Source of the DNA: a virus
Length of the DNA stretch: 38,031 nucleotides
Virus record (IMG/VR): IMGVR_UViG_3300009502_000113
Coordinates: 1-38,031 of that record
Strand: one strand, 5' to 3'
A program made the translations under genes and the position numbers. Shown here in pieces: positions 7,401-37,905 of the stretch. Every line of letters starts with the position of its first letter. The first letter of the stretch is position 1. The notes below the pieces were generated by a model. That model saw only the letters and a list, made by a program, of their open reading frames with translations. It searched no databases and was not told the origin of the DNA.

Positions 7401-9647
7401 GGTTTAACAACTGTTGATAGTATTATATTAACAAATGGTACAAGGGTACTTGTTAAAGACCAAAATACTGGAAGCCAAAATGGTATATATATTGCAACTG
7501 GTGCTACATGGCATCGTGCTGTAGATTATGATTTTAGCCCTGCGGGTGAAATTAGTAACGGTAATTTAATTCCTATTGTTACAGGCACTACTAACGGTAA
7601 TACAATATGGGTATTAACAACACCAGACCCAATTGTAAGTGGAGATACATTGACATTTTCATTGTTCTCAAAAACATCCGCAGTGGTTGCTGGTAATGGT
7701 ATTAATGTAACACAAACTGCTGGAAATTATGATGTTAGTGTAAAATTAGCGAATAATTGTGGATTATGTTCTGATTCATCGGGTTTATATGTTAATTCAG
7801 CTATTGCTGGCACTGGCTTAAATTATAGTACGGGAGTCTTAAGCGTTTGTGGTGCAAATCTTGCTGGTAATTCAATTTTATGGAGTGGCAATACATTTAA
7901 TGTTAATCCATCAACAGGTACATTAAATACTGTTTTAAATACTAAACTAAATACTAGTGTATATCAATCATATACTGGCACAACTGCAACAGCAATTAGT
8001 TGTAGATTATTAAGTTCGATATTTAATGGTTATAGTGGTACAACAGCACCAGCACAATTTATTGCTCGTACATTATTTGATTCATATACTGGTACAACAG
8101 CACCAGCACAATTTATTGCCCATTCGTTATTTGATTCATATACAGGTGCAACTAAAATCATTCTGGATAATAAGGCGTTCTTAAGCGGAGCTACCTTTAG
8201 TGGTATTGTTAGAACACCTAAAGCAGCTCAAAATGATAATAGCACTTGTGTAGCAACTACTTCTTGGTATATTAGTCAGGGTGCAACTGTAAATCCAACA
8301 ATGGATGGTGTTGCTGCTTGTGGAATATCAAATTTATTTGCCCGTCAAGATCACGTGCATCCGATTGATACCTCAAGATTAGCTGTAACTGTATTTGGTA
8401 CATATACTGGTACGACAGCACCAAATATTTATACACCGAAAGCTTCCCCTGTATTTACAGGAACTGTTACGATGCCAACACCATTCACATTAGGTGCGGT
8501 AAGTGTGGTAGCAACTGGAACGGTAATGAATTATCTTACTGGTGCTACAAGCAATATTCAGTCACAGATTAATTTAAAATCAAATATTGCTTCACCTACT
8601 TTCACTGGAACGGTAACGATACCAACACCATTTACGTTAGGTGCTGTAAGTGTTGTTACAACAGGAACTGTAATAAATTATCTTACTGGTGCTACATCAA
8701 ACATTCAATCACAATTGAATGCTAAAGCACCAATAATTAGTCCTACTTTCACAGTTAGTGCTAGATCGGTGACTCCTGCTATAAATGATAATAATACTTG
8801 TATTGCAACAACTGCATGGTATTTTGGTCAAGGTGCTACTTCAAATCCATTAATGGATGGTATTGCTACTAGTGGTAATTCAACATGTTGGTCAAGACAA
8901 AATCACGTACACCCAACAGATACTTCGAGATTAGCAACAACTGTATTTAATGGTTATACAGGTACAACTGCACCAGCAGCATTTGCAAGTAAGTCAGTGT
9001 TTAATACTTATACTGGAACTACTGCACCAGCTACTTTCCAATCTCACTCAAGTATTTTAACTTACACTGGTACAACAGCACCTGCAGCATTTGCAAGTAA
9101 GTCAGTGTTTAATACTTATACTGGAACTACTGCACCAGCAGCATTTGCAAGTAAGTCAGTGTTTAATTCCTATACTGGAGCGACACAAACTAAATTAAGT
9201 CAGAAAGCGTTCTTAAGTGGTGCAACTTTTACAGGAACAGTTACAATGCCAACACCATTCACATTAGGTGCTGTAAGTGTTGTTTCAACAGGAACTGTAA
9301 TAAATTATCTTACTGGTGCTACAAGCAATATCCAAACACAAATAAACACTAAAACAGATAAGACCAAAACAATTGTAACTCTTACTGGTAACACTACTTT
9401 AAACGCAACATATGCAGATAAATTAATTGAAGCAAATGGAACTTTTACAATTACATTACCTGATGGCATGGTAACTGGTATGCGTTTAGATATAATAAAT
9501 GTTGGTGCAGGTGCAATTACATTGGCAGCAACAACAACATTAAATACGAAAGCAGGTAATAAAAGATTAGTTACCCAATGGGTTGGAGCTTCTGCATATC
9601 ATAGGGGTTCAAATGTTTGGGTGGCTGTCGGAGACCTTACAGCATAA
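4491..9647 (+). CDS. Giant modular tail fibre, 1718 aa
   Basis: The N terminus (~1-90) looks like the virion-attachment domain. Residues ~90-940 are Thr/Gly/Asn-rich fibre modules such as KNTLQIN and FGISTPTAIVHLKEG. Residues ~949-1060 match a domain shared by many phage fibres (VATTANVSLSGLTTVDSI, RVLVKDQNTGSQNGIYIAT, WVLTTPDPI). Residues ~1170-1640 are repeats: a 17-aa unit (YTGTTAPAxFxxxSxFx) in several copies, a ~40-aa unit (PTPFTLGAVSVV...YLTGATSNIQ) three times, and a unit with (D/N)HVHPxDTSRLA twice. The C terminus (~1640-1718) is a small beta-rich tip domain like that at 1-405. No chaperone domain is seen. This is almost certainly the long receptor-binding fibre. Confidence 0.9.
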   Translation: MAYLIYRTDFANTIVGESTTDTASGGTEQSILKSLISPTFLIPETQPIYYWKIVLPTSAIPNDEIHIALWEKKIAIPPTADALATVGYVTGLTSVINNNINYISGVTDTKLDISTYTGYTTTTGLQQVTDINASTTNESTFRGGLITNKIRPTGDTTTAIQIHKADGITNIINVDTVSGFTGYGTIAPKNKVHLFGTDTTDTSECAVQTNGLTLDGVAGADKEIVWANNGVPKWQAQTCRNENDVFWYLANTQSKNNPLTVMETGGIGINKQSNYANYHAAEIVTVTGLDDLVVSGIYTQNYNTVYELEIVASGVTFDTWHWRKSVDASITYGGYSPSSGATLTPVELENGIFVNFKHLTGHGAGAKWRFVGFSQIPQATLTLAPMEIQEVQKTNNYFANPIIYKDITAVANGGVYENQFEIFSSGSGGTSQSIYFGFTVQAQMMFINLATYGSDVTLVAQYWNTNISDWTTLSTIHDYIDGTNNLENSGRIIWQPQNMTGWDKGYIPDLVETNYDLYWIRLITTTNPAIAPIAKSINIGNDKRFAIYDSFNDYRPSYYVDTLGRVNIGGGNITGKNTLQINSATNTLASCGVTESLFEIDSENSSVTDMKLKLSSNDNCGAGITFIGTRGTLDTPASTQYGDTLGRIDFKGRFNNCSEILSRINSVYTGVGGDKEGDLVLSTADNNILNEVVRISSTGTTGFGISTPTAIVHLKEGTTSIAPLRFNSGNLLSSPQAGAVEFNNDAYYGTITSGSTRKTFAFLESPIFTGTPQLPIGTCLIPVSANLNDYIWNSGGTNNACLFKTCSFNAYTGNTQPTINIAITGASNGLTKSGSHDIKFGGLLTEDTTVGAGGKNFTLCAKKFTIASHSGTDIYDALGNDINIYSSGGTVTLYGKTSGGTEAMRFIINQSQATFTDSRVIPKGIEYDQNYAGTFVARSLVDKGYVDSVATGLVVKTSVQVATTANVSLSGLTTVDSIILTNGTRVLVKDQNTGSQNGIYIATGATWHRAVDYDFSPAGEISNGNLIPIVTGTTNGNTIWVLTTPDPIVSGDTLTFSLFSKTSAVVAGNGINVTQTAGNYDVSVKLANNCGLCSDSSGLYVNSAIAGTGLNYSTGVLSVCGANLAGNSILWSGNTFNVNPSTGTLNTVLNTKLNTSVYQSYTGTTATAISCRLLSSIFNGYSGTTAPAQFIARTLFDSYTGTTAPAQFIAHSLFDSYTGATKIILDNKAFLSGATFSGIVRTPKAAQNDNSTCVATTSWYISQGATVNPTMDGVAACGISNLFARQDHVHPIDTSRLAVTVFGTYTGTTAPNIYTPKASPVFTGTVTMPTPFTLGAVSVVATGTVMNYLTGATSNIQSQINLKSNIASPTFTGTVTIPTPFTLGAVSVVTTGTVINYLTGATSNIQSQLNAKAPIISPTFTVSARSVTPAINDNNTCIATTAWYFGQGATSNPLMDGIATSGNSTCWSRQNHVHPTDTSRLATTVFNGYTGTTAPAAFASKSVFNTYTGTTAPATFQSHSSILTYTGTTAPAAFASKSVFNTYTGTTAPAAFASKSVFNSYTGATQTKLSQKAFLSGATFTGTVTMPTPFTLGAVSVVSTGTVINYLTGATSNIQTQINTKTDKTKTIVTLTGNTTLNATYADKLIEANGTFTITLPDGMVTGMRLDIINVGAGAITLAATTTLNTKAGNKRLVTQWVGASAYHRGSNVWVAVGDLTA
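8014..9345 (+). repeat. Tandem and interspersed repeats inside the tail-fibre gene
   Basis: Three repeat families alternate here. The 51-bp/17-aa YTGTTAPA family occurs at ~8029-8150, once near 8400, and at ~8940-9180, where the last copies share long identical stretches encoding AAFASKSVFN. The PTPFTLGAVSVV...TGATSNIQ family occurs at ~8455-8572, ~8602-8716 and ~9229-9345. The STCVATTSWY...HVHPIDTSRLA family occurs at ~8230-8385 and ~8790-8937. High nucleotide identity between copies allows recombination to lengthen or shorten the fibre shaft. Confidence 0.85.
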
Positions 9648-13169: not shown

Positions 13170-14780
13170 ATGAAAAAATTATCATATAACTTAGTTAAAG
13201 AAATTGTTTTAAATAGATGTCAAGAAAAAAATTATATGTTAATCGAGCCATTGATTTATATAAATTCGTACAGTAAGCTGCATTTGCGATGTAATATTGA
13301 TAATCATGAATGGCGTTGCTCGTATAGTAATTTTATTAATCATAAAAAGGGATGTCCAAAATGTTCTAGAACATTAAAACATACACAACAAGAAGCAGAA
13401 ATAAGTATTAATAATATTTGTAACGAAAAAAAATATACTTTAATTAAGCCGTTTATTTATAAAAACAATAAAACAAAAATATGGTTAAAATGTAATCATG
13501 ATAATTATGAATGGGAATTAACATATGACAATTTTATTAACAATAAAACAGGATGTCCTAAATGCGCAGGAAGATTAAAATTAACCCAATTAAATGTTGA
13601 AAACACTATAATGGAGAAGTGCAAAGAAAAAAATTATCAATTAACTAAACCCTTCATATATACAAATAACAAAACTAGAATTTATTTAAAATGTAATTTA
13701 GATGGTTATGAGTGGGATGTCAGATATTATAACCTTATTAATAGTAATAAGGGATGTCCTAAATGTTCTGGTAGTTTAAAATTAACCCAATTAGATGTTG
13801 AAAACACTATAATGGAGAAATGTAAAGAAAAAAATTATAAATTAATTGAACCAGTTAAATATATTGGGTCGGATAATACAAGAATTTTTTTAAAATGTAA
13901 TATTGATGACCATGAATGGGACGTTAAATATAATAATTTTATCAACCAAAACGCGGGATGTCCTAAATGTGGAGGAAATTTAAAACTTGACCAAAAAGAT
14001 ATAGACGAAAAAATAATGTCTAAATGTAAAGAAAAAAATTATACGTTAATTGAGCCATTTATATATGAAAATTTTCGCAATAAAATGCATTTAAGGTGTA
14101 ATGTTTGTGATCATGAATGGAAAACTACTTATGACAGTTTCATTGGTCAGAATCATAATTGTTTGAGTTGTAGTAAAAAAATGAAAATGACTGATGAAAA
14201 CGATGCAAAAACTAATGTTTTAAATAGATGTTTAGAAACAAATTACAAATTAATTGGTACGTTTAAATATATTGGGTCTCAAAAAACAAAAATTTGTTTA
14301 AGATGCGATATTGACGATAACGAGTGGTGTACTACATATAATATTTTTGTTAATAATAAAAGTGGATGTCCTAAGTGTAGATGGGGAAAAGCCGTAAAAA
14401 CAATGATTGAAAAATACGGAGAGGCATATTTTTACATTATTCCTAAGCATAACGAAAAATCGATTTTTTATTTAGATATAATTTCAGAAAAACTTTCAAC
14501 CCCAATTCAACACGCTTTAAATGGTGGCGAAAAGAAATTTATTAAATATTGGGTAGACGGTTATATCGAAGAACATAACATTTGCATTGAATGGGACGAG
14601 AAACATCATAAATATAAAAAAATTAAGGATAGGGATGTAATCAGAGAACAATTCATTAAGGACAATTTTAATTGTCATATCATAAGAATAAACGAAAAAG
14701 AATTTCTATTAGATGTTGAAAATCAAATTGAAATCATTTGTAACAAAATTAATAATATAATCAATGGGAAGTACATATAA
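13170..14780 (+). CDS. Homing endonuclease with six zinc-ribbon repeats and a Vsr/PD-(D/E)XK-like nuclease domain
   Basis: Residues ~1-400 hold six ~65-aa repeats of the form L(K/R)CNxDxxEWxxxYxNxI, ~10 residues, GCPKC. Only repeat 5 has a full CxxC (CNVC) at its first half; the others have CNxD or CDID. The C-terminal ~110 residues have a restriction-like nuclease core: KYWVDGYIEEHNICIEWDEK, followed by RDVIREQFI and CHIIRI. It is probably a free-standing homing endonuclease that cuts alleles lacking it. Its last 17 nt overlap the next gene's start at 14764. Repeats 3 and 4 share ~70 nearly identical bp, indicating recent duplication. A TATAAATA at 13150-13157 lies 12 nt before its ATG. Confidence 0.8.
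   Translation: MKKLSYNLVKEIVLNRCQEKNYMLIEPLIYINSYSKLHLRCNIDNHEWRCSYSNFINHKKGCPKCSRTLKHTQQEAEISINNICNEKKYTLIKPFIYKNNKTKIWLKCNHDNYEWELTYDNFINNKTGCPKCAGRLKLTQLNVENTIMEKCKEKNYQLTKPFIYTNNKTRIYLKCNLDGYEWDVRYYNLINSNKGCPKCSGSLKLTQLDVENTIMEKCKEKNYKLIEPVKYIGSDNTRIFLKCNIDDHEWDVKYNNFINQNAGCPKCGGNLKLDQKDIDEKIMSKCKEKNYTLIEPFIYENFRNKMHLRCNVCDHEWKTTYDSFIGQNHNCLSCSKKMKMTDENDAKTNVLNRCLETNYKLIGTFKYIGSQKTKICLRCDIDDNEWCTTYNIFVNNKSGCPKCRWGKAVKTMIEKYGEAYFYIIPKHNEKSIFYLDIISEKLSTPIQHALNGGEKKFIKYWVDGYIEEHNICIEWDEKHHKYKKIKDRDVIREQFIKDNFNCHIIRINEKEFLLDVENQIEIICNKINNIINGKYI
13575..13845 (+). repeat. Near-identical 70-bp copies in adjacent endonuclease repeats (period 201 bp)
   Basis: The segment 13575-13644 and the segment 13776-13845 are nearly identical apart from scattered substitutions. 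They code for KLTQLNVENTIMEKCKEKNY and its homologue. The spacing of 201 bp equals one 67-aa zinc-ribbon repeat, so one unit was duplicated recently. Confidence 0.8.
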
Positions 14781-15128: not shown

Positions 15129-18100
15129 ATGGATAACGTAAATGTATTGGGGGAAATAAAAAGTTTTTTAGAAGGTTACAACAACGACCTAAAATATCTT
15201 GTAAATGTTGAAACTGATCCTCGTAATTGTATTGCTGAATGTGTTATACACGAACCAAACAAAGACCCCAGAATTCAAAAAATACGTTACGAACCTTTCA
15301 TGTATATGAAGGATTTATCTAAACTTAATATTAATTTATATAATGGTCAGAATGAAGAATATGTAGATAGACTAAAAATTAAAAAAGGCATTACAATCAC
15401 CAAACTAAAAACTGGTAATCAAAAAAGATTAGTAAATGGATATTGTTATAAAATAACAAGTTCTAAGTCTTATAATGAGATTGTTAACTTTTTAAAAGAA
15501 GGCGGTATTAATCCATATGAAAAGGCGGTAGATTCTGATGACAATTTTCTTAGAGATGAAAAAGGAAAATTTGTCTACCCAAATCGTGATATTTTTTATT
15601 CTCCAAGAACAACCGAACAATTCTTTATTTCAAACCAAACAAGATTATATAAAGGTTTTGAAGAATATAAAAATGTTCATAAATTAACATTCGACATTGA
15701 GACAACTGGTTTAAGATTTCAAATATCAAGAATGTTTGCAATTGGTGTTAGAGATAATCGTGGCTTTGAAACAATACTTGAAGTAGATAAGTTAGATGAC
15801 GATGAAGCTGAAGCAAGATTAATACAAGATTTTTTTAATTTAATTGATATTAAAAAACCTGCTGTAATTTCTGGATATAATTCAGAAATGTTTGATTTTG
15901 AATTTATTTTGGGTAGAGCAAAAATGCTTAAGGTTGACATAGAAAAGTTACCACAAGGACTTAAAACAGACTCAAAATTAAACAGAAGGGGTGGGACTAG
16001 TGTGAAATATGGAAATACGGCAGATTCTTATACTGCCACTGAAATGTGGGGTTATTCTATTATTGACATTATGCATGCTGTTAAAAAAAGAATGGCGGTA
16101 AATAGTGATATAAAAGAAAGTAAGTTAAAATATGTTGCAAAATTCGAAAAGATTGCAAAACCGAATAGAACATATATAAAAGGCGAAGATAATTCTATTG
16201 GTAAGTTTTATGCTGAAAATAAAATATTTTTGGTCAATGAAACAAATGAATATATTCAAGTGCCAAATGATTACCAAGATACCGCAAAAAAACTTTATGT
16301 TCTTCAAGGAAATAAAGATAGAATAGGTGAGGAAGAGTATAAAACGCTTAGAAAAAAATATTTAGATGAAGACATAACATTTGTTGATTGGTTAAAGAAA
16401 AGTCCTTTACCAAAAGGAAATGTTAGCTTCATGGGTGGTAAAAAGTTGGTTAAACAATATCTATTGGATGACTTATGGGAAACTGAACAGGTTGATGAGT
16501 TATACAATCAATCATCGTTTATGTTGGCTAAAATTGTTCCTACCACATACCAACGTGTTTGTACTATGGGTACTGCATCTATTTGGAATTTGTTAATGAC
16601 TGCGTGGAGTTATGAAAACAATTTAGCTATTCCACATCCAGATAAGGCAGATAGATTTTCTGGTGGCTTGGCAAGATGTTATAAAGTTGGATTTACAAAA
16701 AGAAGTAAGAAGATTGACTATGCGTCACTATACCCAATGATTCAATTGGATAATGATGTGTTCCCAATGTTTGATATAACAAACGTATTAAAAAAATTAT
16801 TACTTTATCTCACAACCACACGTAACATTTACAAGAAAATTGCAAATGGAGGTAGATTAAAAGAGCAAGAAATTTCATTGTTAAGAGAAATTGATCCCGA
16901 TATACACGTTAAATATATTAACAATAGTTTAACATCTGCAGATATTGCAATGTGTGAGGTAAAACAGTTACCTATCAAAATTTTGAATAACTCTTTATTC
17001 GGTGCTTTGGGTTCGGCAATATCATTTAATTGGTCAGATAATGTCTGTGCAGCTAGAATTACATGTACAGGCAGGTTACATTTAAGACATGCCATTGATT
17101 GGTTTACTAATTATGGGTGTGTTGCATTGCTTGCTGTAACTGATGGTATAAACTTTAATTATCCTGAGAAAACTAAAATTAGGGTTACTGATGATGGTGT
17201 AAATGATGGTGTAAATGATGGAGTAAGTGAGGGAGTAATTGAAGAAATGTGGCAGTATAATGGTAAGATTGGTTTAAATGCACTTATTGAAAAATATAAC
17301 AAAGAAGAAATGCCTTCTGAATATATGTCTGTTGACGATGACGGAGACTCGATTTCAAGTTTAAATCTTTCACGTATTAATTACGCATCCTTATCATTGG
17401 CTAAAGATAAAAAGACTGGTGAGATGAAAGAAAAGATCAAACTAACAGGCAATACAATCAAGTCTAAAACAATGCCAGAATATATTGAAGAATTTATCGA
17501 TAAAGGATTGAATATGATTCTTCATGGTCAAGGAAAAGAATTTGTTGACTATTATTATGATTATTGTGATGATATTCGTTACATGCAAATTCCATTGAAA
17601 AAGATTGCAAGTAAGAGCAGAATAAAAACTACGTTAAGCGCATATAAGAAAAGAGGTAACGATAAAAATGGAAGAGAAAAGGGCAAACAAGCACATATGG
17701 AATTATTAATTGAAAAGAGAAATGCAATTGCAGAAGAACTTTTTGATAAACATAAACATACTTTAGACCCAAAATATCTTAACAAAGAATTAACAATTGA
17801 AACCAAAACAAAACTAATTTCTAATTACATGCCCCCTGAACCTGATTTAGATAGTATGGTATATTATGTTAATTCAGGCTATAAAAAGGCACATGGAGAC
17901 TCAAGTGTTATTATGGATGATGTTACAGGTAAAGAAAGATTTAGTGCAACATTAATTAGTGCCGAAGATTTACTTGAAAATCCTAATATGACAGGTAAAT
18001 ATAATTATAACAAATATTTGGCAGCATTTAATGAACGTGTCGAATCGTTATTAGTTGGATTCGAACCTGAAGTACAAAAGAAAATTTTAGTTAAAATTGC

Positions 18101-18662
18101 AAAGAAAAATATTGATAAGGGGGATGTTAAAATAGAGATTGGTGATTTGATTAAAGAGGGTTTCGGTCCAGATGAATTAACACTGAAAAACTTCGACAAT
18201 GATAATTACGATGAATCAATGCACCTAGAAGAAATGGAAGTTGATTTTTGGAATAAAACTGGTTATGACCCAAGAAAAATATGGGATGGATTTAAATTGC
18301 ACGAAGAATATAAAGTTTATTATGAAATATACGAGAATGCTTTAAATCATTTAAATGAAATGATGACCAAAAATAATAAACCTAGAATTAAATCAATAAA
18401 CGATAATTATAAGAATGGTGACTTTGTTTTAATTAAGGATGGTAGTGAATACCATGTTGCAGCATATAATGGAGAATATATGCAAATCGTCAGAGAAAAT
18501 GTTCAAGTGCCTAAAAGTGAAATTGAATTGGAATTAGATAGAATTAGAGAAGAAAAAGATAGAAAAATTGAGGAATTAAGAGTTAGTGAGTTAACAACAA
18601 AAACCGATAGAGAGATATTTTTAGAATCACAATCAGAAAAAAGAATAAAATATTTCATATAA
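15129..18662 (+). CDS. Family B DNA polymerase
   Basis: This is the replicative DNA polymerase with 3'-5' exonuclease. The exonuclease motif DIETTG is at ~188-193, and the NSEMFDFE stretch at ~250-258. Polymerase motif A is DYASLYPMI starting at D530, motif B is KILNNSLFGALGS at ~617-629, and motif C is VTDG with catalytic D672; the usual first Asp of D-T-D is Val670. A thumb-type K-G pattern (KIKLTGNTIKSK) follows at ~765. Four 12-bp repeats (GVND, GVND, GVSE, GVIE) lie at 17196-17243. At 1177 aa it is longer than T4 gp43 (898 aa). The TAA at 18660 is followed in the same frame by 55 further sense codons, so the C terminus may be truncated. Confidence 0.9.
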   Translation: MDNVNVLGEIKSFLEGYNNDLKYLVNVETDPRNCIAECVIHEPNKDPRIQKIRYEPFMYMKDLSKLNINLYNGQNEEYVDRLKIKKGITITKLKTGNQKRLVNGYCYKITSSKSYNEIVNFLKEGGINPYEKAVDSDDNFLRDEKGKFVYPNRDIFYSPRTTEQFFISNQTRLYKGFEEYKNVHKLTFDIETTGLRFQISRMFAIGVRDNRGFETILEVDKLDDDEAEARLIQDFFNLIDIKKPAVISGYNSEMFDFEFILGRAKMLKVDIEKLPQGLKTDSKLNRRGGTSVKYGNTADSYTATEMWGYSIIDIMHAVKKRMAVNSDIKESKLKYVAKFEKIAKPNRTYIKGEDNSIGKFYAENKIFLVNETNEYIQVPNDYQDTAKKLYVLQGNKDRIGEEEYKTLRKKYLDEDITFVDWLKKSPLPKGNVSFMGGKKLVKQYLLDDLWETEQVDELYNQSSFMLAKIVPTTYQRVCTMGTASIWNLLMTAWSYENNLAIPHPDKADRFSGGLARCYKVGFTKRSKKIDYASLYPMIQLDNDVFPMFDITNVLKKLLLYLTTTRNIYKKIANGGRLKEQEISLLREIDPDIHVKYINNSLTSADIAMCEVKQLPIKILNNSLFGALGSAISFNWSDNVCAARITCTGRLHLRHAIDWFTNYGCVALLAVTDGINFNYPEKTKIRVTDDGVNDGVNDGVSEGVIEEMWQYNGKIGLNALIEKYNKEEMPSEYMSVDDDGDSISSLNLSRINYASLSLAKDKKTGEMKEKIKLTGNTIKSKTMPEYIEEFIDKGLNMILHGQGKEFVDYYYDYCDDIRYMQIPLKKIASKSRIKTTLSAYKKRGNDKNGREKGKQAHMELLIEKRNAIAEELFDKHKHTLDPKYLNKELTIETKTKLISNYMPPEPDLDSMVYYVNSGYKKAHGDSSVIMDDVTGKERFSATLISAEDLLENPNMTGKYNYNKYLAAFNERVESLLVGFEPEVQKKILVKIAKKNIDKGDVKIEIGDLIKEGFGPDELTLKNFDNDNYDESMHLEEMEVDFWNKTGYDPRKIWDGFKLHEEYKVYYEIYENALNHLNEMMTKNNKPRIKSINDNYKNGDFVLIKDGSEYHVAAYNGEYMQIVRENVQVPKSEIELELDRIREEKDRKIEELRVSELTTKTDREIFLESQSEKRIKYFI
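17196..17243 (+). repeat. Four 12-bp tandem units inside polymerase
   Basis: GGTGTAAATGAT occurs twice exactly (17196-17207 and 17208-17219), followed by two diverged units (17220-17243). They encode GVND, GVND, GVSE and GVIE, a short acidic insertion ~20 residues after motif C. Confidence 0.8.
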
Positions 18663-18863: not shown

Positions 18864-19481
18864 ATGAATATAACAAAAAAAGACCTATTTGAGATAATTG
18901 ACTCAAACGGAGAATTAATAGGCAATAATGCCATTCCCACAACAGGTGCTGATTTAGAATCACAAGCAAATAATACAACAGACTATAACGCTAAGATTGG
19001 TACTCAGCCATTCCGATATGACATGCTCGGAAGATTTGGCTTTTCAATGATGCCATTCATGGAGGGAAAGGAAGATCAAAGTGAAAATGAGCTTTTGAAT
19101 GAGCTGGGTGAGTTGATGTATGATAGATATGTTGAAATTCTAAGGTTCTATTATAAAAACCCAAATAAGTTGAAATCTGATTATCGTAAAATTTCTGATG
19201 GTGATAGTGATGTTAATAAAGAAGTTAATTCTGAATATGCTAACAAGATAATGAAAATTGTTGTTAAACACTTTGAAAATGCGTTTAAACAACCAGAACA
19301 GATAGACGAAGCTAATGTGGTTGAAGATAAGATGGTTAATAGTAAAAAAGAAGATGAGATTAGTAAGAAGAGTAATGATAATGATTTTACCGAAAAGAGA
19401 TTAGAAAAGATTGCTGGTTTAATAAATAAGCTAGATAAAGAAGATATTAATAAACTCAAAAATTTATTGGAGATTGGGTAA
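18864..19481 (+). CDS. Conserved phage protein, possible capsid cargo, 205 aa
   Basis: The function is unknown. The N-terminal ~25 residues (ITKKDLFEIIDSNGELIGNN) are followed by a low-complexity polar segment, then helices (residues ~75-105, ~115-145) and a C-terminal Lys/Glu-rich helical tail (EKRLEKIAGLINKLDKEDINKLKN). IDE followed by Ala occurs at residues 147-149 between the folded part and the tail. This is the (L/I)xE pattern cleaved by T4-type prohead proteases. It is the first gene after a late-type promoter, in a block of proteins sharing such motifs, so I infer a virion-internal or head-associated protein. Its stop overlaps the next ATG by one base (TAATG). Confidence 0.5.
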   Translation: MNITKKDLFEIIDSNGELIGNNAIPTTGADLESQANNTTDYNAKIGTQPFRYDMLGRFGFSMMPFMEGKEDQSENELLNELGELMYDRYVEILRFYYKNPNKLKSDYRKISDGDSDVNKEVNSEYANKIMKIVVKHFENAFKQPEQIDEANVVEDKMVNSKKEDEISKKSNDNDFTEKRLEKIAGLINKLDKEDINKLKNLLEIG

Positions 19482-20821
19482 TGGAAGGCAATGAAATTAA
19501 TAAAAGTCATAACACACAATCGACTATTGGCAATGAAAAAAGAAGATTAACCAATTTGAGTAGATGTGGTGTTATTACCAATTTATTGCATGATGATACT
19601 AGAAAAAAGATTAAGGAAACAAACTTGAGAATATTTGGGGCTGTGCATAATTCTCAATCCGAAATAATTAAAGAAAAAAAGAAACAAACGAATTTAAAAA
19701 ATTGTGGCGTTGAATGTAATTTAATGTCAGATGAATTTAAAATAAAAAGTAAAATCACAACGCTTGAAAAATATGGTGTTGAACACACATCACTATCGCT
19801 AGAAATTAGAAAAAAACAATGTGTTACTAAAAGAAAAAATAAAATAATTGAATTTGCAACACATTTAGGTATTGATGTTGAAAACATTTTACATGATGGA
19901 GATATGTTAACAGTTAATAATTATTGTAATCTTCACAATACTTTTAACATAACCATAAATCAATTTCATCAAAGAAGATTTAAGTATGATAATAAAATCT
20001 GTACAAAATGCTACCCAATGAAGAAACAAAATTCTGGTTCTGAAATTGAACTCAAAAATTTTGTTAAATCGTTAAATTTTAAACAAAATAACAACAATAA
20101 GAAAATTTTGGGCGATAGGTTTGAAATTGATATATTTTTACCTGAGAATAATTTAGCAATTGAGTTTGATGGTCTTTATTGGCATTCCACTGTTTATAAA
20201 AATAGTAATTATCATTTAAATAAAACTGAGGAATGCGAAAAACAGGGTATTCAATTAATACATGTATTTGAAGATGATTGGACATATAGAAAAGAAACCG
20301 TTAAATCAATAATTAAATCTACTTTAGGTATATTTGATTATAATATATTTGCATTTAAATGCACAGCCATTGAAATAGACGGTAAAACATCTTCCGAATT
20401 TTTAAATCAGAACCATATTCAAGAAAAAATAGATACAATAATTAACATTGGGTTAATATACGAAAATGAGTTGGTTAGTTTAATGTGCCTTGATTTAATT
20501 AATGGTGAATATGAGTTATTGAGGGTTTGTAATAGGCTTAATACTAGAGTAATGGGTGGTGAAGTAAAACAACTGAGTTATTTTATTGAAAAATATAACC
20601 CCAAATCAATATTAACGTCCGTTGATAGGAGATATTCAAATGGTGGATATTTAAAACAAATTGGTTTTGATTTTGTTGAAAACACCGAACCGAATTGTTG
20701 GCACTTTAATACAAATGAATTAATTAGAGGAAAAATACCTTCTGAAAATCAAGAAGAGCACAAAGGAAGATTTTTAAGTATTTATGACTGTGGTGAAATG
20801 AAATTCAGATTAAAATTATAA
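19481..20821 (+). CDS. Homing endonuclease, Hef-like with NUMOD-type repeats and Vsr-like nuclease domain, 446 aa
   Basis: Residues ~20-110 hold four short repeats of the type (T)NLxxCGVxxNLxxDxxxKxK or TLEKYGVEHTSLS, a DNA-binding module typical of Hef-like phage homing endonucleases. Residues ~185-280 contain a Vsr/PD-(D/E)XK-like core: FEIDIFLPENNLAIEFDGLYWHS, then EECEKQGIQLIHVFEDDW. The C-terminal ~160 residues (including VNRLNTRVMGGEVKQLSYFI-like, LTSVDRRYSNGGYLKQIGF) resemble the accessory domain of the same class. It overlaps the preceding stop by one base and ends 4 nt before the Nudix gene, so it appears inserted into an operon between two cargo-type genes. Confidence 0.8.
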   Translation: MEGNEINKSHNTQSTIGNEKRRLTNLSRCGVITNLLHDDTRKKIKETNLRIFGAVHNSQSEIIKEKKKQTNLKNCGVECNLMSDEFKIKSKITTLEKYGVEHTSLSLEIRKKQCVTKRKNKIIEFATHLGIDVENILHDGDMLTVNNYCNLHNTFNITINQFHQRRFKYDNKICTKCYPMKKQNSGSEIELKNFVKSLNFKQNNNNKKILGDRFEIDIFLPENNLAIEFDGLYWHSTVYKNSNYHLNKTEECEKQGIQLIHVFEDDWTYRKETVKSIIKSTLGIFDYNIFAFKCTAIEIDGKTSSEFLNQNHIQEKIDTIINIGLIYENELVSLMCLDLINGEYELLRVCNRLNTRVMGGEVKQLSYFIEKYNPKSILTSVDRRYSNGGYLKQIGFDFVENTEPNCWHFNTNELIRGKIPSENQEEHKGRFLSIYDCGEMKFRLKL

Positions 20822-23510: not shown

Positions 23511-26500
23511 ATGGCATATAATCCAGAGGAACAGAAGTGTAATACCAACGAACTTTTTAATAATGCAGATGGAAACGATGATATTCTTTCAGATATTGAT
23601 GACGGTGATAATATAAGACACGGAATGTGGGCAATTACTCCTTATAGTGTTGAAGATGGTACTGGTGTTGTAAATGAAGTTTATGATAGGAAACTTGCAG
23701 ATGAAATCGCACCATTAATTGCAGAAAAATTTAATTTAACATTACAGTATATTGATAGTGGCGAAAATGGTGTTGCTTATGATGCTGGTAACGGTAAAGT
23801 ATTAAAAATTACTGGCGATAAAAGTGAAGCAGTTGAAAATCTTAAACTTATTGGGAAGAAATTAAATTATATTGCACAACCATATGTTGTACTCAAAATA
23901 ACTTCCAAAAACAAACAAATGCCTGAAACATATGCAATTATATTAGAAAAATTGCAGACTAATGTAAATGAATTCGAAAGACTAATCGATAGAATGAATT
24001 TTGCATTTAAAAAAATATTGGGAATTGATTATTATGATGTAATTTTACATTATACTGACCAACCAGATTTTAGTGTTGATGATGATAAGGTAAATGCTTA
24101 TTTGAAAAAAAATCCACAAGATGCCGAATTTTTTTATGGAATAGTAAGAATTGCTGAGGAATTGAAAAAATATGACATTGAAAGCGTTGACTATATCAAT
24201 CCTAAAAATCTTGGGTATAAACCAAGCGGTGCTTTAGCTTTTTTTGATGTAGGATTTGGTAGTGATGTACATACTCAAGGTAGTGTTCCAAAAGAAATGG
24301 AAATTGATGAAGACGGTAGTTCTAAATTCTCACAAACTGACTCAATTGGTAGAGACGATTTTCCTGCTTATGACCAAAATGATACATCACCCTCTATTAA
24401 AAATGATTTAAATGCAAATTCTGCAATGTATAATGAAGATTTGGAATATAATCATGCCAGTGATGCAACACAAGATGAGTATATTATCGATGAAAGAGTA
24501 TTATCCTCAATGAAAGGTAGTAGCACTGTTAATGTAAAGAAAAAATGTAGATTGGGTGGCTTGGGTAATACCAGTGCTCCTTGTAATCAAGGAGATATTG
24601 GTAATTTGGAAATTAAATCACTAAACGAAGAGGAAAATAAATTAAATTTTCCAGCAAAATATATGTCAGGTATGGAAGATGTTAATGATTTAGAAAGACT
24701 TTTATTTAACAGCGCAAATGGTAATAAAGCATATATGATAGAATGGGCAAAATCAGTTGATTTATCAGAACCTATCGATGTGTCTGTTTACCAAAGTGGT
24801 GAAGTTGTGTTTAATGATGGTCATCATAGAGTATTGGCAGCAAGATTACAGAATAAAAACGTTAATGTTAATGTAGTTAATAATAGACTAAAACCAGAAA
24901 TTTGGAAAGAATATTTAAATAGGATAAGCATGGGATATTCACCTATTGACATTAATCCAGATCGTGTAAATTTGAATTATACTGATAATTATGCAATACC
25001 TTCACCCGAATTAATGAAACGTGGTAAGGAAGAGATTACCATGAAGTCTGGTAGAAGAGAGGATTTATTTAAGTTCTATCTTGATAATGCAGAATCTAAT
25101 AATATTAACGAAGAAATTGATGCGAAAGAATTAGAAATCATTAGAAAATACTTAATCAATTATTTTGATTTGAATAATGTTATTGAACCAGCAAGCTTAC
25201 CAATTAAAGCGGGTAATGTTAGACTATATCATCAAACCGACAAAGAAAATTTCGATAATATAAAAAAAGAAAGAAAAATAAATATAAATAACTCAACAGG
25301 TAAATTAAATAAAGAGCCTACCGCTATATGGGGAAAAGTAATTACTAATTCAGATGAAAACGGCTTTTACGGTTCACCAAAAGAACGTTACACTATTGAA
25401 TATCAAATACCAAAGAATGAGGTTGTTTCAGGGATGGTTAATCGTGATGTAACTTCTGACGAAATTTTGGCTTTTCATAATCCACAATTATTTAACATTG
25501 AATATCTTGTAATGGATGATGATTATCTTCGTCAATTTATTGAAAATCCTGAAAAATTTTTAAAATATAAAGAAACATCTAACGATTCTAATGAGTATGG
25601 GTATTATTTAATTGCCAAAGCAATTATAGAGTATAATAAAAATGTTGTATCATTAAACGAAGAAATTGATGCGAATGAATTATATGGTGAGAATAGTAAT
25701 GAAAAATCTATTCAAGCAATGATAGATGGAAAGAAAAGTATTGCCTTCGTAAATTTAACACCCGAATTAAGTAATATAGTAAAAAACAATGGATATAGAA
25801 CAATTAAAGTTGACCAAAAACCCAATCAAGAGCTTAACATGCACATTGTCTACTATAATGATGCATTAAATAGAGAAAGAGCAATGAGATTATACGATAT
25901 TGCTAGAAGTCGTGAAGGATATTTAAAAGCATACTCACCTAACGAAGAAAGAGAAATTGGTAATCTACTTGGATATACTGAAAATTCAATTGAAAATCAT
26001 ATAAAAAATAAATTTGATAAGAAAATACCCGAAGTACCTGTAATGCCCGAAAAATCACCAGAAGATTTCGATTTAGATGAAAATATTGAAACTGAGAATG
26101 AAATAGAGTTTACAAACGATGCTTTATTAAACACATTTTTAAATAAGTTAAATCAAAAAGAGCCATTACAAAGAAACCCGTTCATACGTAGAGAATTAAT
26201 GTATGGTGAAAAGGGTTCTTTAGAATTTTCTAGATTTGATAAAGAAAATACCAACGAAATTGAATTATCCGATATTGTTGCTTATGAAAAATCGCAGGGT
26301 GTTGGCAGCTCAATGATGAAAGATATTATTGATGTTGCAGATGAAATGAATGTTAAATTAACGTTAACAGCAAAACCATTTGGTAATGATCCCAATGGAT
26401 TAAAATTATTTCCATTAATAAATTTTTATAAAAAGTTTGGATTTGTTGCTGATTTAAGTATCTTTGACGGGGAATTTGAAACAGAAGAAGAATATCTTAA

Positions 26501-28307
26501 TTATGTTAGAGAATATCCTGACGAGGGTTTTGATATGTATAGAGAACCAAATGGAATAAATGAAATGATTAACGAAGCAGAAATAATGTCACTACAGGAT
26601 TTACCTTTTAAGAGTGAAATAGAAAGCCTTGGAGGACAGATACTTAGCGTAGGTGGTGCGGTGCTTTTGGATAAAACGGGCTTATTTTCACAAATATTTG
26701 GCAGACCACCATATTATAGTTTTGAAAATACAATATATCCTTTTGATAAAGTAAAAACAATGGGTGAGTTTATTTACTTGTTAAGTAAAGATGTTGTTGA
26801 AAGTCCTGCTGAGTTCTATAAAAGCAATTTAAAGGGCGATATTGACACTTATAAAGAAATAAAGGGATTGAACGCTGCATTTGAAATGGATAGCACAAAT
26901 CCAATCGCAGCTAGGTCGGTTGCCCATAATATGTATCTCTATTCACCGCAATCATTACAGAGTCAAATAATTCCTAATACTGTACAAAGAGCAGCACAAG
27001 AATTGTTACAGGGTAAATATCCTAAGAATAGTATTGAATTGGCTGTTAATGGAAATGATTTAATTAATGCTGGTTTAAAGGGCAAAGAAATTGGTGATAT
27101 GCAAAAATCTTTATTACTTAAAGTTTATGGAGATAAGGTTAAGAATGATAAAGAAGAATTATTAGGTTTAGTTGGTGGAAATGAAGATAGTGAACCAATT
27201 GACGAAGCAAAAAATAAATGGGTTAACTATAAATATGATGGTGAACCATTTTATTTTGATCCAGAAACATTATCGGATGCTAAGTGGCAAGTATTAACAA
27301 ATCTTTTAACTAAAATGGGTTGGCAAGCAAGACCATATATTGAGTGGAAAAAATACTTTCTTGAGAAAGGTGCTGGAACAATACCAAATGATATACTTAG
27401 AAATACTGATTCAAGTGATTCAACTAAAATTGCTGCAATAAAAAAAGTGATAACTCCAAATAAAAAGCCAAGTGAAAGTCAAAATATTATTACAAAGGCT
27501 AAGAGATATTTTGGTATGACTAATATGTTTAGTGAAGCAGGATATCTTTTACAGGATGGTACAATGTTGAACTTCTCTGGTCAGAAATTTGGCGGATCAC
27601 CAAATAGGCGTGATATGGATCATAGAGAAGTAAATATTATTGACACTGACATGGTTGAATTTATGGCATTAGGTAACATTAGAATGCAAAGCTATGGATT
27701 TGAATTAACCCAAGAACCAACTAGGGAACAAATTAATACGTTAAGACGTTTTATTGGTAGTAAAAATGGTGAAGTAACAGTTGATTTTTCTAAAAAGGGT
27801 CAATACAGTGTTGAACATTCTGTTGAGTATCAAAGTGGCACAAATGTGAGTAGGATTCTTAATGATATTGTTAATTATTATAGAACAGGTATTAAACCAA
27901 TTTCTAAACCAAATTTAACGGAAGAAATAAATAACGTACTTTACAGTGCAGTTGTTCTTGATGAGCAATCACGAGCTAAATTGCTTAAAGTTTTTAGATT
28001 AATGATTCCAGAGGGTTGGGAAGTTCTTGCAGATCACATGACCATTAATTTAGGTGCAATTAAACCTCAATTTAAAGATGATTTGGGTGATGTGGTGGAC
28101 TTATCTGTTCTTGATTATGCAATTGATGATAAAGTCATGGCTGTTGGTGTTGAAGGATACCCAACAACGAATGCTAAGGCACATATAACTATAGCTGTAA
28201 ATAGAAGTGCTGGTGGTAAGCCAGTAATGTCAAACAATTTAACTGATTGGAAAGAAATTAACTTTAAAATAGAATTAAAAGGAATAATAACCGAAATTAA
28301 AAAATAA
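23511..28307 (+). CDS. Large polyvalent protein with multiple effector-like domains, 1598 aa
   Basis: Domains by eye, in order: ~75-185 kinase-like fold (SGENGVAYDAGNGKVLKI); ~385-470 ParB-like domain (DGHHR ~436-440); ~563-683 ADP-ribosyltransferase-like (RLYHQT); ~725-845 unknown (REGYLKAYSPNEEREIGNLL); ~866-985 GNAT-like (QGVGSSMMKDI, FYKKFGFV); ~1027-1223 degenerate CCA/tRNA nucleotidyltransferase-like (GGQILSVGGAVLLD, VNGNDLINAGLKGKEIGDMQ); ~1340-1460 a domain common in polyvalent proteins (AGYLLQDGTMLNFSG, DHREV); ~1480-1598 2H phosphoesterase-like (HMTIN ~1507, HITIA ~1557). Six (L/I)xE sites lie in linkers: LNE 371-373, INE 532-534, LNE 715-717, INE 1020-1022, IDE 1230-1232, LTE 1469-1471. 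It is probably packaged and cut apart. Individual domain calls are tentative. Confidence 0.75.
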   Translation: MAYNPEEQKCNTNELFNNADGNDDILSDIDDGDNIRHGMWAITPYSVEDGTGVVNEVYDRKLADEIAPLIAEKFNLTLQYIDSGENGVAYDAGNGKVLKITGDKSEAVENLKLIGKKLNYIAQPYVVLKITSKNKQMPETYAIILEKLQTNVNEFERLIDRMNFAFKKILGIDYYDVILHYTDQPDFSVDDDKVNAYLKKNPQDAEFFYGIVRIAEELKKYDIESVDYINPKNLGYKPSGALAFFDVGFGSDVHTQGSVPKEMEIDEDGSSKFSQTDSIGRDDFPAYDQNDTSPSIKNDLNANSAMYNEDLEYNHASDATQDEYIIDERVLSSMKGSSTVNVKKKCRLGGLGNTSAPCNQGDIGNLEIKSLNEEENKLNFPAKYMSGMEDVNDLERLLFNSANGNKAYMIEWAKSVDLSEPIDVSVYQSGEVVFNDGHHRVLAARLQNKNVNVNVVNNRLKPEIWKEYLNRISMGYSPIDINPDRVNLNYTDNYAIPSPELMKRGKEEITMKSGRREDLFKFYLDNAESNNINEEIDAKELEIIRKYLINYFDLNNVIEPASLPIKAGNVRLYHQTDKENFDNIKKERKININNSTGKLNKEPTAIWGKVITNSDENGFYGSPKERYTIEYQIPKNEVVSGMVNRDVTSDEILAFHNPQLFNIEYLVMDDDYLRQFIENPEKFLKYKETSNDSNEYGYYLIAKAIIEYNKNVVSLNEEIDANELYGENSNEKSIQAMIDGKKSIAFVNLTPELSNIVKNNGYRTIKVDQKPNQELNMHIVYYNDALNRERAMRLYDIARSREGYLKAYSPNEEREIGNLLGYTENSIENHIKNKFDKKIPEVPVMPEKSPEDFDLDENIETENEIEFTNDALLNTFLNKLNQKEPLQRNPFIRRELMYGEKGSLEFSRFDKENTNEIELSDIVAYEKSQGVGSSMMKDIIDVADEMNVKLTLTAKPFGNDPNGLKLFPLINFYKKFGFVADLSIFDGEFETEEEYLNYVREYPDEGFDMYREPNGINEMINEAEIMSLQDLPFKSEIESLGGQILSVGGAVLLDKTGLFSQIFGRPPYYSFENTIYPFDKVKTMGEFIYLLSKDVVESPAEFYKSNLKGDIDTYKEIKGLNAAFEMDSTNPIAARSVAHNMYLYSPQSLQSQIIPNTVQRAAQELLQGKYPKNSIELAVNGNDLINAGLKGKEIGDMQKSLLLKVYGDKVKNDKEELLGLVGGNEDSEPIDEAKNKWVNYKYDGEPFYFDPETLSDAKWQVLTNLLTKMGWQARPYIEWKKYFLEKGAGTIPNDILRNTDSSDSTKIAAIKKVITPNKKPSESQNIITKAKRYFGMTNMFSEAGYLLQDGTMLNFSGQKFGGSPNRRDMDHREVNIIDTDMVEFMALGNIRMQSYGFELTQEPTREQINTLRRFIGSKNGEVTVDFSKKGQYSVEHSVEYQSGTNVSRILNDIVNYYRTGIKPISKPNLTEEINNVLYSAVVLDEQSRAKLLKVFRLMIPEGWEVLADHMTINLGAIKPQFKDDLGDVVDLSVLDYAIDDKVMAVGVEGYPTTNAKAHITIAVNRSAGGKPVMSNNLTDWKEINFKIELKGIITEIKK

Positions 28308-31254: not shown

Positions 31255-33702
31255 ATGGAAGGAAAAATTAGAATACTTTTTTACAATAGAGATTCCGCAG
31301 GAGTCAATTATTTTCGCACACTAACTCCCGCAATGGAGCTTGAGAGAAATCACTCAAATGAATTTCATGTAGAAATTAACCCACAATTAGATTTTAACGA
31401 TCCAAACATCGTTGATTATTTAAAAACATTTCATGTAATACATTATCATCGTCAGCTTTTAGATGACACTAGACAAATGTATAATTTAGCAATTGAATTA
31501 AGAAAATCGGGCACAGTTTTAATTAATGATATTGATGACTATTGGGAGTTACATAAAGATCATCCTTATTATATGATAAACAAAGAGAAGAAATTACATT
31601 TATCAATAATTGAAAATCTAAAAATTGCTGATTATGTTACAACAACAACCGATTTGTTTGCTGAAGAAATACGCAAAATAACTGGTAGAGATAATGTTAT
31701 GGTATTTTATAACTCTATTGACCCAATTTGGATGAAACAATTTCAAAATAATTGGAAGCCAGACCCAGATGGAAGAGTTAGAATAACGTACATGGCTGGG
31801 TCGTGCTATGACGATAAAACCGAAATTTTTACCGAAAATGGTTGGAAGTTATTTAAAGATTTGGATGTATCCGAAAGGGTTGCAACTTTAAATTCCGATA
31901 ACAACCAACTTGAATATCAACAACCTACGGAATATATTAATGAATCGTATTCTGGTGATATGTATTATGGAAAAAATTCACTAATTGATTTCGCAGTTAC
32001 CCCAAATCATAACATGTTTGTGTGTAAATCAAAACATTTGCGCAGAAAAAAACCGTTTAAATTTGAATTAAATAAAATGGAGAATTTGGAAAATTATGAT
32101 TTGACTTTTAAGAAGAATTGTGATTGGATTGGAAACGATGAAGAATATATTATAATTCCTGAGCACATTACAACAAAACAACATACGGATATGTGTGGTG
32201 AAGTTAAAATAAAAATGAGTGATTGGTTGAAATTTTTTGGATTTTGGATGGGCGATGGGTGGACTACTAATGATAATTCTCGCCATGTGGGTGTTTGTGG
32301 ATATAAGCAAATTGGCATTGATACGATGAAAGAAATTAAAGAAATTTTTGATAAATATAATATTAGTTCAACGTATAATGGCAATAACACACTAAGATTT
32401 TTTAATAGACCATTATATAATTATTTATATCAGTTTGGCGGTGCAAATGATAAGCATATCCCAAAACATATTTTAAATTTACCTAAAGAGAAATTAGAAA
32501 TATTTTTGGAATATTATTTAAGGGCGGATGGACACATAAGAGAAAACGGTAGAAAAACTGGATATTCATCATCCAAAAATTTGGCAAATAATTTAAATGA
32601 GATTGCGTTAAAATTGGGAATCTCTGCAACGATGACGAATAGAGGTTTTCGCAATGGTGATAAATATATTAAAGGTAGATTAATAAATCAAAGATATGAT
32701 GCATATGACATTAATTTCTATTTAGAATCAAATAAAAATAATTTAACGCCAACATTACCAGCTAAAAATATAATAAAAGGTACGTATGATGGTAACATAT
32801 ATTGTGTTACTGTTCCAAACCATATATTATATGTAAGAAGAAATGGTAAATCGTACTGGTGTGGAAATTCGCATAGGGGTGATGTAATACAGCTTGAAAC
32901 TGTTATGAATGTAATATCAAACGATTATGAGTTAAAGGATAAGTTTAAAGTGATTGTTGCTGGTTGGGATGCTGAGGGTAGTACAACTGACGTAACATTT
33001 AACGAAGAATTTGGTGAAGAATTAAAGAAAAAAGGATTGTGGACAAATAAAATTCTGAAATCGATTAATACTTCGAGAGGTAATGTGGATTTAATGCATG
33101 ATGTTCCAGATGCTTTGAAAGAAAAATATAGGGGAAATGTTTTTAGTGAAAAACAAAGGGATATTAAATCTGAGGAAAGTGTTTATCTTCATTACGAAAA
33201 TTTATTGACAAATAATCATAAGATGATTACCGATCCAGATTATCTTCAATGGCTTTCGAATTATGAAAGAAATATTCAATATGAAAATGAAGGTAATTTT
33301 GCTAGACGTTGGACACAAAAAGCAAACGTATATGCTCAGGTTTTAGATGAAACTGATATCGTGATTGCACCTTTGGCAGATAATAAATTTAACTATATGA
33401 AGAGCAACCTCAAGCAAGTAGAGTGTTGGACAAGAAAATTACCAATTATTTGTTCAGACATTCCACCATATAATATTCACGGTAGGCATATGGAAAATTG
33501 TGTATTAATTCCATCGGAGAAAAATGCTCATAAATATTGGAAGAAATATTTGAAAAAACTTATTTTGGATGCTGATTTGAGAAAAAAACTTGGCGAACAA
33601 TTATATGAGGATTTTAAAGAAGAATATTCACTGAAAAACGTTACAAAAAAACGTGCAGATTTTTATAAGGCAGCGGTTGCAAAAACATTAGAAATAATAT
33701 AA
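31255..33702 (+). CDS. Glycosyltransferase (GT4-like) interrupted by an intein
   Basis: The exteins total 460 aa (residues 1-183 and 539-815). The N-extein has a Rossmann-like start (ILFYNRDSAGVNYFRTLTPA). The C-extein has a GT4-type donor-binding region (DIVIAPLADNKFNYMKSN, then PIICSDIPPYN). The intein sits between MAGS and SHRGD, the family's conserved GS-x-H-x-x-D loop, so the enzyme should be inactive until splicing. Sugar donor and acceptor are unknown; it may glycosylate phage DNA, virion proteins or host envelope. No membrane segment is visible. It follows a terminator and starts a new unit that runs into 33721. Confidence 0.85.
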   Translation: MEGKIRILFYNRDSAGVNYFRTLTPAMELERNHSNEFHVEINPQLDFNDPNIVDYLKTFHVIHYHRQLLDDTRQMYNLAIELRKSGTVLINDIDDYWELHKDHPYYMINKEKKLHLSIIENLKIADYVTTTTDLFAEEIRKITGRDNVMVFYNSIDPIWMKQFQNNWKPDPDGRVRITYMAGSCYDDKTEIFTENGWKLFKDLDVSERVATLNSDNNQLEYQQPTEYINESYSGDMYYGKNSLIDFAVTPNHNMFVCKSKHLRRKKPFKFELNKMENLENYDLTFKKNCDWIGNDEEYIIIPEHITTKQHTDMCGEVKIKMSDWLKFFGFWMGDGWTTNDNSRHVGVCGYKQIGIDTMKEIKEIFDKYNISSTYNGNNTLRFFNRPLYNYLYQFGGANDKHIPKHILNLPKEKLEIFLEYYLRADGHIRENGRKTGYSSSKNLANNLNEIALKLGISATMTNRGFRNGDKYIKGRLINQRYDAYDINFYLESNKNNLTPTLPAKNIIKGTYDGNIYCVTVPNHILYVRRNGKSYWCGNSHRGDVIQLETVMNVISNDYELKDKFKVIVAGWDAEGSTTDVTFNEEFGEELKKKGLWTNKILKSINTSRGNVDLMHDVPDALKEKYRGNVFSEKQRDIKSEESVYLHYENLLTNNHKMITDPDYLQWLSNYERNIQYENEGNFARRWTQKANVYAQVLDETDIVIAPLADNKFNYMKSNLKQVECWTRKLPIICSDIPPYNIHGRHMENCVLIPSEKNAHKYWKKYLKKLILDADLRKKLGEQLYEDFKEEYSLKNVTKKRADFYKAAVAKTLEII
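31804..32868 (+). mobile_element. Intein with LAGLIDADG homing endonuclease, 355 aa
   Basis: It starts with Cys184 (CYDDKTEIFTENGWKLF, block A) and ends at Asn538 in YWCGN, followed by Ser539 of the extein. Block B is T249-x-x-H252 (TPNH). Block F includes CVTVPNH. Two dodecapeptide motifs, FFGFWMGDGW (D334) and YYLRADGH (D425), mark a single-chain LAGLIDADG endonuclease, with catalytic acids intact. The penultimate His is Gly, a known natural variant. All splicing residues expected for a Cys1/Asn/Ser+1 intein are present, so it is probably active in splicing and homing. Confidence 0.95.
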
Positions 33703-36792: not shown

Positions 36793-37905
36793 ATGAAAAA
36801 ATTAACTACTGAGGAATATATTAAAAAGGCACGATTAGTGCATGGGGATAAGTATGGTTATTCTTTGGTTGAGTATGTGGGACGTGATCATAAAGTTAAA
36901 ATTATTTGTGAAAAACATGGAGTGTTTGAACAAAATGCTGGGAATCATTTGAGTAGGTGTGAATGTCCCGAATGTGCCAATGAAATAAATCCAAATATAA
37001 AAATGGATGCAAAAACGTTTATCGAAAAAGCACGGCTAGTTCATGGAGATAAGTATGACTATTCTTTGATTAAATATATTAAATCGGATGAAAATGTGGT
37101 TATTGTTTGTCCTAAACATGGTGAATATTTACAGAAGCCGAAAAACCATTTGTGCGGGTATGGTTGTCAAAAATGTGCGGGTAAGAATAGGTCAACTGAT
37201 GATTATATTTATGAAGCCAAATTAGTACATGGTGATAAATATGATTATTCTTTGGTTAACTATAAAGATACGATAACAAAAATAAAAATCGTTTGTTGTG
37301 ATCATGGAATGTTTACAATAAGACCTAGCGAACATTTATTTGGTTATAAATGTCCTAAATGTAACAAAATGTTTGTTAACACCAAAAGTTTTATTAAAAG
37401 AGCCAAATTGGTTCATGATGATAAATATGATTATTCTTTGGTTGATTATGTTAATGCCGTGACAAAAATAAAAATTATTTGTCCAAAACACGGTACTTTT
37501 ATGCAAAGGAGTGGCGATCATTTAGTTGGAAGAGGTTGCCCACATTGTAACGAATCTAAAGGCGAATTGGTAATTACAAACTATTTAAAAACAAAAGGCT
37601 TTGAGTTTATTAGGGAGAAAAAGTATGATAATTGTAGAGGGTATAAAAGGACACTGCCTTTTGATTTTTATTTGCCTGATTATAATGCATTGGTTGAATA
37701 TGATGGCGAACAACATTTTAAACCATTGAAATATTGGGGAGGTGAAGAAGGTTTCAATAGACAACAAATTAACGATAATATTAAAAATGAATACGCAAAA
37801 AATAACAATATTAATCTTTTGAGAATTAGATTTGATGAATATAAAAATATAAACGAAATTTTAGATAAAAACATAAAAACATGGCAGACACAACTACAAA
37901 TGTAA
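36793..37905 (+). CDS. Homing endonuclease with DUF723-type zinc-binding repeats and Vsr/PD-(D/E)XK-like nuclease domain, 370 aa
   Basis: Residues ~4-255 hold four ~62-aa repeats of form (Y/F)IxxAxLVHGDKYxYSLVxY, then IxCxxHGxF...HL...CxxC, likely zinc-binding DNA-recognition modules. Residues ~265-365 have a nuclease core: LPFDFYLPDYNALVEYDGEQH, followed by NEYAKNNNINLLRIRFDEY. It resembles phage Vsr-like homing endonucleases such as the EDxHD group. It starts 5 nt after gp25 and overlaps the start of the gp6-like gene by 25 nt (37881-37905), an insertion between two genes that are neighbours in T4. A remnant of the same class lies at 29810. Confidence 0.85.
   Translation: MKKLTTEEYIKKARLVHGDKYGYSLVEYVGRDHKVKIICEKHGVFEQNAGNHLSRCECPECANEINPNIKMDAKTFIEKARLVHGDKYDYSLIKYIKSDENVVIVCPKHGEYLQKPKNHLCGYGCQKCAGKNRSTDDYIYEAKLVHGDKYDYSLVNYKDTITKIKIVCCDHGMFTIRPSEHLFGYKCPKCNKMFVNTKSFIKRAKLVHDDKYDYSLVDYVNAVTKIKIICPKHGTFMQRSGDHLVGRGCPHCNESKGELVITNYLKTKGFEFIREKKYDNCRGYKRTLPFDFYLPDYNALVEYDGEQHFKPLKYWGGEEGFNRQQINDNIKNEYAKNNNINLLRIRFDEYKNINEILDKNIKTWQTQLQM

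Follow-up and report, generated by a model that had tools for sequence, protein, structure and literature searches.

A predicted phage glycosyltransferase gene interrupted by a full-length class 1 LAGLIDADG intein

The interrupted gene and its intein

The window, by which we mean the whole stretch of DNA analysed (38,031 bases), is an entire viral record, probably a fragment, and its source was an uncultured, probably large, tailed phage. Positions 31255-33702 (+) encode 815 amino acids with no internal stops. The open reading frame matched the glycosyltransferase (GT) family PHROG 7162 (1e-27), with the best stretch falling within the C-extein. Residues 184-538 constitute a 355-aa in-frame segment that begins with CYDDKTEI, ends with SYWCGN directly before the Ser of the C-extein, and splits a 460-aa GT after residue 183. 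The features of the locus are collected in Table 1.

Table 1. Coordinates of the exteins, the intein and its conserved blocks within the window
Feature	Positions	Strand	Basis
N-extein, first 183 aa of predicted GT-B glycosyltransferase, ending RVRITYMAGS	31255..31803	+	Gap-free against 73 inteinless junctions
Four-base patch GTCG directly before the insertion (AAGT in empty homologue L007)	31800..31803	+	DNA comparison
Predicted full-length class 1 intein, 355 aa, Hint and LAGLIDADG endonuclease domain	31804..32868	+	Missing from inteinless homologues
Cys1, block A nucleophile	31804..31806	+	Sequence; invariant in 20 aligned inteins
Block B TPNH, aa 66-69	31999..32010	+	Sequence; invariant in 20 aligned inteins
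LAGLIDADG dodecapeptide 1, KFFGFWMGDG, acid D151	32230..32259	+	D151 conserved in 4 close inteins
LAGLIDADG dodecapeptide 2, FLEYYLRADG, acid D242	32503..32532	+	D242 nearly invariant in 20 inteins
Block F YDGNIYCVTVPNHILYV, with Cys334 (F:4) and His340	32785..32835	+	C334 and H340 nearly invariant in 20 inteins
Block G SYWCGN, penultimate Gly354, terminal Asn355	32851..32868	+	G354 and N355 invariant in 20 inteins
C-extein, last 277 aa of GT, from Ser+1 (SHRGD)	32869..33699	+	Colinear with inteinless homologues

A first-pass annotation had described the segment as a full-length LAGLIDADG intein in a phage glycosyltransferase, a description borne out by motifs, profiles and inteinless homologues. 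Every residue that it named was found in the sequence (C1, TPNH, D151 in FWMGDG, D242 in LRADG, N355 and S+1), and its sizes of about 460 aa for the joined exteins and about 355 aa for the intein match the predicted products. The named catalytic residues are invariant across the four closest inteins, namely that of the window and its three nearest relatives. Pfam returned LAGLIDADG_3 for the window intein (PF14528, E 6.6e-10), in a match that includes the D242 dodecapeptide, and the intein also matched intein-bearing phage families in PHROG (thymidylate synthase, 1e-17; ribonucleotide reductase, 4e-11). Intein structures in the PDB were found with a 20-intein profile (TliVMA, 3e-13; PI-PkoII, 1e-12). 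At these values, chance is a remote explanation of the resemblance to inteins. The structure model of the intein was poor (pLDDT 56), so the fold match to its best hits, the intein endonucleases TliVMA and PI-SceI, is only supportive. Judged on its sequence, the segment is a real full-length class 1 intein.

Several known inteins resemble it. That of Corynebacterium phage P1201 (NC_009816) aligned in full over 355 aa at 28% identity, but its host gene is thymidylate synthase. The intein of Prevotella phage Lak-A1 (MK250016), a very large phage, was 32.5% identical over the whole intein and ends WCGN/S (here and below, a slash in a motif marks the junction); its flanks are unlike the window GT. 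TliVMA, PhoVMA, PI-SceI and PI-PkoII (PDB 7qsu, 7qst, 1vde and 2cw7) share the Hint fold and two-motif LAGLIDADG architecture, but belong to cellular organisms and other host genes, with low sequence identity; for the VMA inteins the host is the V-type ATPase rather than a GT. In Bacteroides phage BF766P4 (L004:2824-4242), a protein annotated as "hypothetical" carries an intein ending QGN/C, with flanks resembling a cell-wall peptidase.

Elsewhere in the window, three free-standing genes (13170-14780, 19481-20821 and 36793-37905) matched homing-endonuclease or HNH profiles, and treble-clef or CapR-type repeats occur in two of the three. Positions 15129-18662 encode a protein of 1177 aa that resembles family B DNA polymerases, for which the Pfam match covers the exonuclease part only. 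A 1718-aa protein (4491-9647) matched head-decoration or tail-fibre profiles, and a 1598-aa protein (23511-28307) gave weak matches only, to families of unknown function.

Host enzyme, insertion point and splicing class

By fold and profile, the host protein is a predicted GT-B (GT4-like) glycosyltransferase. The closest inteinless homologue, L007, was modelled from an alignment with 24 relatives (pLDDT 80.7), and Foldseek placed the model beside the GT-B/GT4 enzymes GlgM, BshA, MshA and glycogen synthase at E ~1e-12 (GlgM, 8e-13). Pfam support for a GT was weak, with Glycos_transf_1 found in 2/25 family members at E < 0.01, and a sequence profile of the GT family reached no GT structure in the PDB. 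Solved GTs were thus reached by fold comparison alone, so the loop that holds the intein cannot be placed on a solved donor complex at the level of single residues. In the C-extein, a stretch at 33001-33156 (ELKKKGLWTNKILKS...) is similar to a conserved part of the large subunit of ribonucleotide reductase (E 0.004 with the family profile, 0.27 with the window sequence alone); this may be chance.

Inteinless homologues fixed the insertion point. The joined exteins retrieved 71 loci from viral contigs, to which an alignment search added more. In total, 73 distinct junctions were empty and three carried an insert in addition to the window, so that 4/77 bear the intein. Within the close family the junction at 183/184 is empty without an extra base; the one exception, L027, lies upstream of the site, where its N-extein has two extra codons. 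L007 is 92% identical over the exteins (91% in the N-extein), and at the far end of the range an empty homologue that is 25% identical occurs in LR756501.1, a 735-kb uncultured phage genome.

In the L007 model, the insertion falls between a strand (175-181) and a helix (186-201). The motif at the site is GS/SHxxD; none of its residues G182, S183, S184, H185 and D188 varies among 25 inteinless homologues, in agreement with the first-pass view that the intein occupies a conserved loop. By comparison with known GT4 enzymes, we infer this to be the first loop of the C-terminal, donor-binding domain. From the invariant loop residues and the GT-B fold, it is reasonable to suppose that enzyme activity would need splicing.

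The class of the intein was assigned from its blocks. Cys1, the TxxH motif (as TPNH), Asn355 followed by Ser+1, and an exact in-frame junction relative to empty homologues are all present, as are two LAGLIDADG dodecapeptides with their acids, D151 and D242. The intein is assigned to class 1 because it has Cys1 and lacks the Trp-Cys-Thr triplet of class 3 (B:12, F:4 and G:5). A class 3 intein was ruled out on the same grounds, B:12 being Met and G:5 Cys in the block alignment; the sole agreeing position is the Cys at F:4.

Two deviations had been missed in the first reading. The penultimate His that is usual, though not obligatory, in class 1 is replaced by Gly354, and block F, which reads NIYCVTVPNHILYV in the window, has Cys334 at its fourth position. 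The penultimate Gly is invariant across the 20 aligned inteins. Splicing occurs in a mycobacteriophage recombination directionality factor (RDF) intein whose penultimate residue is Gly, and is slower when this Gly is replaced by His (PMC5050341). At F:4, Asp is the commonest state and Cys the second commonest (PMC4031507). Both deviations are known variants of phage inteins. A block F His may replace the role of the penultimate His (PMC5050341), and by analogy His340 could do so here. The RDF intein in question, from mycobacteriophage Bethlehem (PMC5050341), is by its description also of class 1, with penultimate Gly, a homing endonuclease and a phage host, and differs in residing in the gene for the directionality factor.

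Movement between hosts and competing explanations

Three homologous inteins, in L079, L078 and L068, were 78%, 75% and 58% identical to that of the window. In the extein tree, each intein-bearing allele had an empty sister: the window with L007 (support 100/98), L078 with L052 (100/98), L079 with L057 (94/93) and L068 with L039 (97/83). The starred branches of this tree force five changes of intein state. The intein tree united the window, L078 and L079 in a clade (100/99), whereas the exteins of L079 lie far from those of the window. In AU tests, the intein data rejected the grouping without L079 (p = 0.001), and the extein data rejected the window with L079, in a moderately strong result only (p = 0.02). 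Between the window and L079, dN was 0.142 for the intein and 0.268 for the exteins. Transfer of the intein between hosts is thus well supported by these comparisons.

Rates of substitution were compared with L079 and L078. With dS above 1 and synonymous sites near saturation, the following dN/dS values are approximate: ~0.12-0.16 for the endonuclease and C-terminal Hint parts against both relatives, 0.15-0.16 for the endonuclease part alone, and 0.11 for the N-terminal Hint part against L078, dS being saturated there against L079. By these rates, purifying selection acts on both the splicing and the endonuclease part of the intein, and the exteins are under it too.

The DNA around the site was compared with that of L007. 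Between 102 bases before the insertion and 52 bases after it, the two differ only in the four bases of the GTCG patch; this may be a short trace of co-conversion, in a small sample of four bases. Identity to L007 was 96-97% within 100 bases of the site and ~81-86% further upstream (window 31301-31803). This drop away from the site suggests recombination near it.

We consider it about 90% probable that the locus holds a self-splicing class 1 intein with a LAGLIDADG homing endonuclease, residing in a phage GT-B gene and copied into empty alleles. After translation, Cys1 would attack the N-terminal junction and the N-extein would be transferred to Ser+1. Asn355 would then cyclise without a penultimate His, probably assisted by His340 of block F, and ligation of the exteins would re-form the GS-SHxxD loop. 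At the DNA level, alleles in which this loop is empty are probably cut by the endonuclease, and repair would copy the intein into them. Such homing is proposed as the reason for which the intein is found in scattered members of the GT family; both its sporadic presence and the conflict between the intein and extein trees fit homing. The intein is predicted to splice and to cut DNA, and the precursor to be an inactive enzyme until spliced; overall, the intein is very probably active and mobile.

Other readings of the segment were weighed against the same data. Were it a native domain of this GT family, with no insertion having taken place, its continuity with the frame would be explained, the sole point in favour. 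The 73 distinct gap-free homologous junctions without it, the nearest in a homologue 92% identical, rule out such a domain and confirm the insertion point, and relatives of the segment occupy unrelated proteins (terminase, thymidylate synthase and methyltransferase); the chance of this reading is vanishingly small. The comparison with inteinless homologues that the first-pass annotation had proposed thus came out in favour of an insertion. A degenerate intein, with splicing lost and the glycosyltransferase dead in this phage, might be suspected from the replacement of the penultimate His, the class 1 norm, by Gly. Yet Gly is the rule within this clade, the penultimate-Gly phage intein of PMC5050341 splices, and does so more slowly once Gly is changed to His, the reading frame is intact, and intein and exteins alike show purifying selection, which together make degeneration very unlikely.

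Harder to dismiss, if still improbable, is an intein that splices with a dead endonuclease and is inherited vertically with occasional loss, since losses alone could give its sporadic presence. Against this stand the two acids, intact in all four alleles, the dN/dS of the endonuclease part, the conflict between the two trees, and the greater likeness of the window and L079 in their inteins than in their hosts. Self-splicing together with homing into empty alleles is the reading that we prefer.

Glycosyltransferases as intein hosts

The first-pass annotation had regarded a GT as an unusual host for a phage intein. This holds for a survey of mycobacteriophages and for the isolate-phage hits inspected, but not for uncultured viral contigs, in which GTs repeatedly carry inteins, both in the same loop and at further GT sites. 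In the mycobacteriophage survey, hosts are mostly genes of DNA packaging, modification or nucleotide metabolism, comprising terminase, RecB, RDF, nucleotidyltransferase, methyltransferase, primase, portal, thymidylate synthase and helicase genes, and none is a GT (PMC5050341). A GT annotation occurred in none of the 60 isolate-phage records listed, of 138 with a related intein; where annotated, these were thymidylate synthase, DNA polymerase, methylase, reductase, nucleotidyltransferase or similar. No phage glycosyltransferase with an intein came up in a literature search of open papers.

Among the best 80 relatives from viral contigs, the same loop of other GTs is occupied in L081, L082, L084, L085/L086/L088 and L087, and in L083 and L089 the intein lies about two codons from the loop site. 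A further viral contig, L221, carries an additional GT-loop intein. Together with L068, L078 and L079, these share a clade with the window intein, and the main members also share the GS/SHxxD-type loop of phage GTs; the farther ones are ~42-45% identical in the intein, and host GTs are often far diverged. A quick tree of 73 inteins placed 12 GT-loop inteins in one clade (SH-aLRT 98%), though the sample was picked by similarity to the window intein and the census is incomplete. The literature search found no description of these uncultured-contig inteins, and they apparently form an undescribed lineage that targets GTs.

Inteins also occur at other GT positions. In L191 and L192, an unrelated intein occupies MK/SNLK, another conserved motif (~residue 362) of the same GT family; in L192 it spans 4001 to about 6550, starts CVVGDTLINT and ends INHN/SNLKQ, and the same protein is found in L191. 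Judged by flanks only, related inteins lie in other GT-like proteins, within a GT4-like motif (L103:1464-2429 and L134:4001-5002) and near a GT N terminus (L122:4001-5137, in L122/L123), at sites of the FE.G/TLPLLxAMA and DP/SGYG types.

Bacterial and archaeal genomes gave no relatives with the narrow patterns of a four-intein alignment, and 188 with a 20-intein alignment. Of the flanks inspected, from among the best 80 of the 188, none resembled the window GT, and these relatives sit in other genes. Nine of the bacterial or archaeal relatives (L244, L265, L270, L276, L277, L282, L283, L292 and L296) share one site, YWGNVN..G.R/CYDE, in a host that looks like a nucleotide-sugar epimerase or decarboxylase.

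The 12-intein GT-loop clade and the unrelated inteins at other conserved GT motifs could mean that a specialised intein lineage preferentially targets phage GTs, with splicing at the presumed sugar-donor loop a condition-dependent switch on phage glycosylation. We hold this to be doubtful, with a small chance of being correct. If it were true, the switch might be, for example, redox control via Cys1, Cys334 and Cys353.

The kind of element described here is already known; it is the GT host that was not found in the sources searched. The finding adds sugar-transfer enzymes to the DNA and nucleotide enzymes that serve as hosts of phage inteins, and supplies a new group of natural inteins in which penultimate Gly is combined with Cys at F:4. 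It also provides an instance, supported by trees, of an intein moving between uncultured phages. With matched alleles of one gene, some empty and some occupied, homing-site recognition and splicing lend themselves to direct tests.
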